Shown here: positions 37,425 to 40,369 of the stretch, one piece after another
Layout of the letters: the number at the start of each line of letters is the position of its first letter
Numbering within the stretch: the first letter of the stretch is position 1
IMG/VR virus record: IMGVR_UViG_3300027706_000026
Coordinates: 1-40,369 of that record
DNA length: 40,369 nt
Direction: 5' to 3' (one strand)
From: a virus
The notes under the pieces: model-generated
The model's input: the letters and a program-made list of their open reading frames with translations, nothing else
What the model was told of the DNA's origin: nothing
Database searches by the model: none
Position numbers and translations under genes: made by a program

Positions 37425-37613
37425 TCACCGGAGTTTGACTTGAGCTTGGCGCTCAATGCTCTTCACGGTGTCGATATGCACATCCTTGCGGGGATGAGGA
37501 ACCGTGGCTCGGCCGGGCTTCGTCGGATGCTTGAAGTGAAGGTGGCTGCCCTTCTGCGCGACGCGGTACCATCCATCGGCCTCAAGCTTCGCGATAATGT
37601 TCCGGCTATCCAT
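37425..37613 (-). CDS. hicA: HicA-type toxin, mRNA interferase
   Basis: A 62-residue HicA toxin (double-stranded-RNA-binding-like fold) that cleaves mRNA and arrests translation. The catalytic His is His24 in KGSHLHFKHP, and the family pattern NIIAKLEADGWYRVAQKGSHLHFKHPTKPGRATVPHP is complete in pieces. It is directly upstream of hicB. The ATG has no Shine-Dalgarno and follows the -10 box by only six bases, so the transcript may be leaderless. In a prophage it could stabilise the element or defend the lysogen. Confidence 0.9.
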   Translation of the reverse strand: MDSRNIIAKLEADGWYRVAQKGSHLHFKHPTKPGRATVPHPRKDVHIDTVKSIERQAQVKLR

Positions 37614-37672
37614 AGTGTGTATATATGCACACTCAAGCGGAAATCAAGACCCATTGTGTATTAGTGTGTATC
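37614..37672 (-). promoter_or_regulatory. hicAB promoter and palindromic operator
   Basis: On the minus strand TTGATT, 16 bases and TATATA, ending 6 bases before the hicA ATG. On the plus strand AGTGTG (37614-37619) and CACACT (37628-37633) are inverted repeats around TATATATG, covering the -10 box; more TGTGTA copies lie at 37655-37660 and about 37665-37670. Good operator candidates for the HicB ribbon-helix-helix domain. Confidence 0.65.
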
Positions 37673-38814: not shown

Positions 38815-40369
38815 CTAGAGAAAGAGGAGGTCGGTCGCGACCACGCTGCCACGCGCCGGATAACCGGCGAAGCCGAGCGTATGCAGCCGGCCGAGCGCGT
38901 TGGTGAACCCCTTGGAGTTGAGATGCCCATAGCCGGCCGCGGCCGCGATCTCCTCGCGCGGGACGGCTTGGGGATAGCGTTCGACCAGCGCGCGGATGAT
39001 CCGACCTTCGGCGCCGCCGAGCAATGACGCGATGCGCCGCTGGAGCGCCTCGCTGGTCAGCGGCGCCTCGGTGAACTCGGCGGCGCGCATTCCATCGTCG
39101 GTGAGCGCGACCTTGCCTCGCTCGGGATAAGAGATAAGCCCGGCCGAGCTCAACGCGCCGAGTCCGTTGGTAAAGCCCTTCGAGTTGAGATGGCCGTATC
39201 CGGCGAGGAAGGCTGCGAGCACGCGCGGCGCGCGGTCGACGCCGAGCGCACGGAGCTCGGCGAGGCCGTCGAGGATGCGCTGCTGCGGTCCCGGCAAGGC
39301 GCCGCTGCAGACATTGGTGCGCCCGGCGGGAGTCGAACCCGCCGCCTCCCGGCTCGGAACCGGGCGCTCTCTCCGCTGAGCTATGGGCGCAGGCGAGGTC
39401 GGTGGCACGCGGCCAATGTCGAGCGACCGCGCCAGGATCTTCTGAGCCGTGGCGGCGCTCTGGCGGATCTGCTCGAAAAGCGGCGCCGCTTCGTCGATCG
39501 CCACGCGCTGCTGCGCCAGCATATGGGCGACGGCCTCTTTCAGCCCGTCGCGCCGGCCGGCCTCCACGCCGGAGAGATAAGCCGCGTCGCGATCGGCCTT
39601 GGCCTTGACCGGATCGGCACTACCCTTGGCGAGCGCGCGCTCGAGCTCGGCGACGCGCTGCCGGAGGCGCTTCGGGTCGTTGGCTTCGGCCTCCTTCGCG
39701 ACGCTCGCGAGCCGTCCCTTCAGCGCCTCGATGTTGAGTGGCTTGAGCTCGGCCTCGTGACGTTTCTCGCCGCGCTTGGGCGTCGCCGAGCTATCGAAGG
39801 TCGATTTGGCGGGGAAGGACACGGTCTCAAGGATGCCGCGGCCGGGGACCCAGACGACGCCATGGCCCACTTGCATGGCGGGCAGCGAGTCCTTGATCGC
39901 CTTCCCCTGCTCCTTGTCGGCCTGGCCCTCGATCCAGGCGTCGATCGCGTCGCGGTCTTGGGTCGATGTCAGCTTAAAGGCGATGAGGCCGTCGACTTGG
40001 CTCAGCACATTCTTGTTAATGACCGCGGGCCGCTGCGAGATCACCCACGGGATGAAACCCTTCACGCGGCCGCGGCGCACGATCTGTTCCATGCGGTTGA
40101 GCAAAGTCTCGTCGCCCTTCGGCGGCTTCTGCGGTGCGAAGAGGTCGGCTTCGTCGACGATGAGGTGAAAGGGCTCGCCCGCGGCCTTGCGGAAGATCGT
40201 CTCGAGGAATTCGGTCATGAACTGGCGCTCGGCCGTTTTCGTCCCGAGCTGGCTCAGTTCGACGATGCAGCTCTCCGCCATGGTGACGGCGGTCTCGCCG
40301 ATCAGTGCCCCTGCGCGCTCGTTAAGCGGCAGATCACCGTGCGGGCCGCCGAAGATGACGACGTTGAAC
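38815..40369 (-). CDS. HerA/FtsK-type ATPase, 5' end outside the window
   Basis: A HerA-like ATPase fragment of 517 residues, open to the right edge with FNVVIFGGPHGDLPLNERAGALIGETAVTM before the first ATG (40281), so the P-loop region is outside. Walker B is in FHLIVDEADLFAPQK, and VISQRPAVINKNVLSQVDGLIAFKLTSTQDRDAI matches HerA-family sensor and arginine-finger regions. After a coiled coil (RLASVAKEAEANDPKRLRQRVAELERAL) the linker contains a complete tRNA gene in the same strand. Two winged-helix-like repeats end the protein (AGYGHLNSKGFTNGLG and AGYGHLNSKGFTNALG), about 90 residues apart. Probable role: DNA translocation or processing; a defence or recombination role is possible. Stop TAG overlaps a Shine-Dalgarno for the next gene. 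Confidence 0.75.
   Translation of the reverse strand, partial: FNVVIFGGPHGDLPLNERAGALIGETAVTMAESCIVELSQLGTKTAERQFMTEFLETIFRKAAGEPFHLIVDEADLFAPQKPPKGDETLLNRMEQIVRRGRVKGFIPWVISQRPAVINKNVLSQVDGLIAFKLTSTQDRDAIDAWIEGQADKEQGKAIKDSLPAMQVGHGVVWVPGRGILETVSFPAKSTFDSSATPKRGEKRHEAELKPLNIEALKGRLASVAKEAEANDPKRLRQRVAELERALAKGSADPVKAKADRDAAYLSGVEAGRRDGLKEAVAHMLAQQRVAIDEAAPLFEQIRQSAATAQKILARSLDIGRVPPTSPAPIAQRRERPVPSREAAGSTPAGRTNVCSGALPGPQQRILDGLAELRALGVDRAPRVLAAFLAGYGHLNSKGFTNGLGALSSAGLISYPERGKVALTDDGMRAAEFTEAPLTSEALQRRIASLLGGAEGRIIRALVERYPQAVPREEIAAAAGYGHLNSKGFTNALGRLHTLGFAGYPARGSVVATDLLFL
39315..39390 (-). tRNA. tRNA-Arg(CCG) with encoded CCA, inside the ATPase frame
   Basis: A full 76-base cloverleaf: acceptor GCGCCCA/CGGGCGC (only position 7-66, A-C, mismatched), D arm GCTC/GAGC, anticodon arm CCCGG-TTCCGAG-CCGGG with anticodon CCG, variable AGGCG, T arm GCGGG-TTCGACT-CCCGC, then A73 and encoded CCA. 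It decodes CGG (Arg); A20 and A73 fit arginine identity. It runs in the same direction as the ATPase gene and is read in frame as PIAQRRERPVPSREAAGSTP. Confidence 0.85.

Follow-up and report, generated by a model that had tools for sequence, protein, structure and literature searches.

A tRNA-Arg(CCG) gene nested in frame in the interdomain linker of a phage HerA/FtsK-type ATPase gene

Can the same bases of a phage genome serve both as a tRNA and as codons of a protein? The question arises from the window analyzed here, a stretch of 40,369 nucleotides (IMG/VR virus record IMGVR_UViG_3300027706_000026, positions 1 to 40,369). The record is linear and carries integrase, terminase, portal, capsid, and tail genes; the phage is a temperate siphovirus, probably with an alphaproteobacterial host. 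At one end of the window, an ATPase gene contains a tRNA gene in the sense orientation. The relevant features, all on the minus strand, are as follows.

38815..40369, minus: HerA/FtsK-type ATPase gene (P0001, 517 amino acids), its 5' end cut by the window end; from the open frame, Pfam HerA_C, and homologues
39413-39420, minus: 5' arm, GACATTGG, of an 8-bp inverted repeat; from the minimum free energy fold
39315..39390, minus: tRNA-Arg(CCG), 76 nt, CCA encoded; from ARAGORN, Rfam RF00005, and 20 of 21 pairs
39313..39390, minus: tRNA-encoded linker, residues 327-352 of P0001, APIAQRRERPVPSREAAGSTPAGRT(N); from translation
39310..39317, minus: 3' arm, CCAATGTC, of the 8-bp perfect inverted repeat, including the tRNA CCA; from the minimum free energy fold
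38818..39312, minus: C-terminal region with two winged-helix repeats, both of the AGYGHLNSKGFTN type, in frame past the tRNA; from homologue alignment and the model of homologue L033

The tRNA and the frame around it

The initial annotation described a complete 76-base tRNA-Arg(CCG) with its CCA on the minus strand, and both search programs confirm it. ARAGORN finds a single tRNA in the window, tRNA-Arg(ccg) at 39315-39390 (minus), and the Rfam model RF00005, with a gathering score of 29, matches 39318-39390 at 55.9 bits (E 3.8e-10, with 10.4 kb searched). The arginine identity positions of tRNA are A20, C35, and G36; read from the sequence, all three are present, together with the encoded CCA. 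The copy is not flawless. Pairing is complete at 20 of the 21 cloverleaf positions, the mismatch being A7-C66, and the combination G15/G48 leaves it without the 15-48 tertiary pair, so that stems and tertiary pair are not fully intact; position 38 is also a G. Its Rfam score is the lowest among the intact embedded tRNAs, those of the relatives L033 and L040 reaching 67.7 and 70.0 bits, respectively. Judged on these features, the window copy is the weakest tRNA of the set, perhaps at the beginning of decay or less active. The best cellular matches to it are 81% identical, and its exact sequence has no match in the viral contigs.

The inverted repeat GACATTGG/CCAATGTC flanks the tRNA on both sides and, in the predicted fold, would pair the CCA of the precursor. 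It was seen in the window and in neither L033 nor L040. When the tRNAs are folded in context, the minimum free energy structure contains the four tRNA arms in the window, and not in L033 or L040. A consensus scan found no internal promoter or terminator near the tRNA.

The ATPase frame extends from 38815 to beyond 40368 with zero stops, and the tRNA is read through in frame. The Pfam HerA_C match, at 22.5 bits, lies barely above the cut-off of 22. The homologues have the Walker A motif GTSGSGKT (the N terminus of the window ATPase falls beyond the window edge), and the predicted fold of homologue L033 gives Foldseek matches to HerA and to the packaging ATPase B204. By sequence and predicted fold, then, the protein is a member of the HerA/FtsK superfamily. 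Homologues align in frame both upstream and downstream of the linker, which identifies the frame as a real gene and bears out the earlier description of a tRNA in sense within an ATPase frame, with no stop or shift.

In the protein, the tRNA falls at a hypervariable Pro/Ala linker, with a coiled coil on one side and two winged helices on the other. This is where the initial annotation had placed it. Relatives without the tRNA have linkers of similar length, and the tRNA thus replaces a linker rather than adding a new segment. An AlphaFold2 model of L033 (mean pLDDT 77.5) has two winged-helix domains, and its tRNA-coded residues 387-412 fall within a low-confidence segment, 370-410, that connects a long helix to the winged helices. 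From this model, the tRNA-coded linker is predicted to be disordered and the site to tolerate nearly any sequence.

Recurrence among relatives and the origin of the embedding

Viral and genome scans yielded 58 distinct ATPases of this family. In L033 and in L040 (to which L050 is identical), an intact tRNA-Arg(CCG) occupies the same linker, strand, and frame, its translation reading APVAQRIERRVPNPKVAGSSPAGRA in L033 and ADVAQRIEHRVPNPKAAGLSPAVRA in L040/L050. With the window, this makes three distinct intact cases, and the arrangement is not unique to the window. In a fourth homologue, L037, the equivalent position carries, again in frame, a decayed tRNA that both ARAGORN and Rfam miss: 15 of 21 pairs remain, 52 of 76 positions are identical to the L033 and L040 tRNAs without a gap, and its profile score is 44 against a background of at most 12. 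The homologue ranked after L037 in this profile scores below 0, and the linkers of the remaining ATPases among the 58 show no trace of a tRNA. The score, and the fact that site, strand, and frame all recur, rule out a chance cloverleaf. An assembly artefact is likewise ruled out, since independent contigs share the arrangement and the L050 contig (G008) has direct terminal repeats of 127 bp (1-127 and 51103-51229); this contig, in which the ATPase gene is intact, could well be a complete circular genome, ~51.1 kb in size.

The arrangement is rare. Among 2.9 million viral contigs scanned for the embedded tRNA type, only 4 matched (L033, L040, L050, and L034), all with the ATPase family; because the pattern was derived from the matched sequences and would miss the window tRNA, the scan speaks to rarity and is not an exhaustive count. 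L034 carries the ATPase, but its tRNA-Arg(CCG) is free-standing, outside the ATPase gene. It belongs to a cluster, Pro(CGG)-Arg(CCG)-Gln(TTG), at L034:13041-13301, ~1.6 kb beyond an integrase gene, and the Arg tRNA there is of the same type as the embedded ones. Surveys of cellular genomes with tRNA checks found no bacterial ATPase copy bearing the tRNA. The truncated ATPase L133 (G840) appears to be a plain frameshift, without a tRNA.

The three intact carriers occupy separate, well-supported branches of the ATPase-core tree, so that three changes are required, and they differ in winged-helix type. L033 is a mosaic, its N-terminal half being 92% identical to L003 and its C-terminal half 79% identical to L063, and nucleotide homology between L033 and L066 starts with the first base past the tRNA CCA. 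Together these observations place the tRNA at a junction where winged-helix modules are swapped. Such swaps are seen among L033, L003, L063, L066, and other loci, and both winged-helix repeats of one ATPase are usually of the same type, as if co-evolving.

Three origins are candidates: one ancestral insertion that was later lost many times, several captures at this junction between domains, or recombinational spread. The tRNA sequences do not discriminate among them, since the embedded tRNAs are about equally near to cellular tRNA-Arg genes (at most 67 identical positions for L033) and to one another (58-66). The identity of the tRNA itself may have a simple reason. Frame 0 is open in three of the four cellular tRNA-Arg(CCG) genes sampled and closed in 14 of 15 tRNA-Arg(CCT/TCT) genes; the CCG species thus passes the reading-frame filter unaided, and this open frame may be why it is CCG that is found embedded.

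One transcript and its candidate products

For the RNA, double-sided changes occur at 8 of the 21 pairs among the window, L033, L040, and free-standing L034 tRNAs, a sample of four sequences only; shuffles average 2.6 and in none of 500 reach 8, and slid partners give 0-2. Pairing is kept at 21/21 in L040 and in L034, and at 20/21 in L033. Moreover, five of the six codon changes between L033 and L040 within the tRNA are non-synonymous. Stems that still pair through double changes, while the changed codons are mostly non-synonymous, indicate that selection acted on the RNA. Some of the compensatory changes may predate the embedding, since the embedded tRNAs are about as similar to cellular tRNA-Arg genes as they are among themselves. 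All four tRNAs share the anticodon CCG, T33, and A37, and three pairs of the anticodon arm show covariation. For the protein, L037 kept its frame after the tRNA had decayed to 15/21 pairs, from which it follows that the frame is also selected. A codon-usage need for tRNA-Arg(CCG) gives no signal, CGG usage in carriers (23-27 per 1,000 codons) being like that in non-carriers (16-33).

With moderate confidence, we favor a dual-use gene, in which each transcript could be committed either to maturation of the tRNA-Arg(CCG) nested in the linker or to synthesis of the ATPase. That one transcript could yield either ATPase or tRNA had been proposed in the initial annotation, and it is upheld as the best reading by the recurrence in L033 and L040/L050 and by the stem covariation. 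What we infer is that transcription runs across the locus, that the tRNA is processed and charged, and that the two fates compete. On the protein side, the ribosome would unfold the tRNA and read through it as a 26-residue linker. On the RNA side, RNase P would cut at the 5' end and 3' trimming would proceed to the encoded CCA, giving tRNA-Arg(CCG). The latter would sever the ATPase mRNA ahead of the winged-helix part, leaving an ATPase message that lacks a stop codon and a winged-helix message that lacks a leader.

A captured tRNA that now serves as protein linker only is a possible alternative, although a somewhat unlikely one. By this account, recombination at the ATPase/winged-helix junction brought in the tRNA, it was retained for its open frame 0, and the window tRNA no longer works. 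L037, with its frame kept and its tRNA decayed, is such an end point, and the mismatch, lost tertiary pair, and lowest score of the window copy could mark a step toward it. The prevalence of open frames among cellular CCG genes and closed ones among CCT/TCT genes, the mosaic structure of L033, and the L066 homology that begins right after the CCA also suit capture of this kind. Against it stand the 21/21 pairs kept in L040 and the 20/21 in L033, with covariation despite mostly non-synonymous codon changes, and the same anticodon in every intact copy.

Quite unlikely is the idea that the cloverleaf is only a processing signal, by which RNase P would cut the ATPase mRNA and so limit ATPase or separate its winged-helix part, decoding being irrelevant. 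The tRNA does lie in sense within the mRNA, and on the L033 model a cut there would part the protein domains. RNase P, however, requires the acceptor/T arm and not the anticodon arm, yet covariation extends to three pairs of the latter, and CCG is invariant.

tRNA genes are usual attachment sites, and these phages carry tyrosine integrases, so the embedded tRNA might be an attP whose integration into a host tRNA-Arg(CCG) would split the ATPase gene; this is very improbable, for in the two relatives where the site can be located it lies elsewhere than in the embedded tRNA. In L033 (G006), the integrase gene (41035-42207) is followed directly by a tRNA-Arg(CCT) (42284-42360) and, beyond it, by genes of chromosomal appearance (PPK2), while the ATPase gene lies uninterrupted within the prophage; in L050, the att-like sequence adjoining the integrase is the 3' end of a different tRNA, GGTTCGATTCCACTCGACGGCACCA, unlike the embedded one. 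The earlier suggestion of a former integration target thus finds no support in either relative.

The preferred dual-use reading admits a regulatory extension, which we consider unlikely: a phage RNA/protein switch that sets ribosome traffic against RNase P, such that low translation would free replacement tRNA-Arg(CCG) at the cost of full-length ATPase. Translation might run low, for example, at CGG codons if tRNA-Arg(CCG) were in short supply or cut by a host defence.

Known nested tRNAs and the phage setting

The statement in the initial annotation that no described system is built this way was too strong. In Alphaproteobacteria, selC, encoding tRNA-Sec, is nested in frame inside selB, which its author claims as the first bacterial report (Mukai 2021, PMC8124441), and competition between processing and translation was proposed there (PMC8124441). 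The likeness extends to a whole tRNA in sense and in frame within a bacterial ORF, with remnants in some relatives (PMC8124441). The two differ in that selC, on chromosomes or plasmids, is read as an extension at the C terminus of the very elongation factor that makes use of this tRNA, whereas the phage case has an elongator tRNA-Arg between domains, with ~165 residues of protein past the tRNA. The ATPase is not a translation factor. A putative tRNA-Pro is nested in the octocoral mitochondrial mutS gene (PMC11353228). There too a cloverleaf in a coding region is conserved in relatives, with RNase P processing of the mRNA suggested, but the genome is that of an animal mitochondrion, the case is predicted only, and gene and tRNA are unrelated to those described here (PMC11353228). 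The open-licence literature yielded no example from a phage, nor any that lies between two domains of a bacterial protein. In-frame nested tRNAs are already known in bacteria; as far as our search goes, the phage gene and the interdomain placement would be the first of their kind.

Ordinary phage tRNA genes also include tRNA-Arg, as in the L034 cluster, but these lie between genes and not inside an ORF. The ATPase core resembles HerA (4d2i), SIR2-HerA complexes, and the B204 packaging ATPase in fold and sequence, although TM-scores against HerA are low, about 0.2-0.4, and the phage form has a coiled coil, a variable linker, and two winged helices.

If the dual-use reading is true, nature would offer here a system where selection acts on the same bases both as folded RNA and as translated codons. 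Whether an RNA is at once mRNA and pre-tRNA becomes directly testable, with intact, decayed, and tRNA-free versions of one gene occurring naturally.

In L033, the ATPase gene lies between a gene for an S24-type repressor and YqaJ and RecT recombination genes, neighbors that put it in an early/lysogeny region. In Afipia massiliensis, a tRNA-Pro(TGG) (L016:7569-7645) stands ~130 bases ahead of the ATPase frame, as though a prophage had integrated at that tRNA with the ATPase as its leading gene. In the window itself, 37510-37614 (minus) is the start of a HicA-like toxin gene, with a blastn match to a HicA toxin gene of Paracoccus phage vB_PbeS_Pben1.
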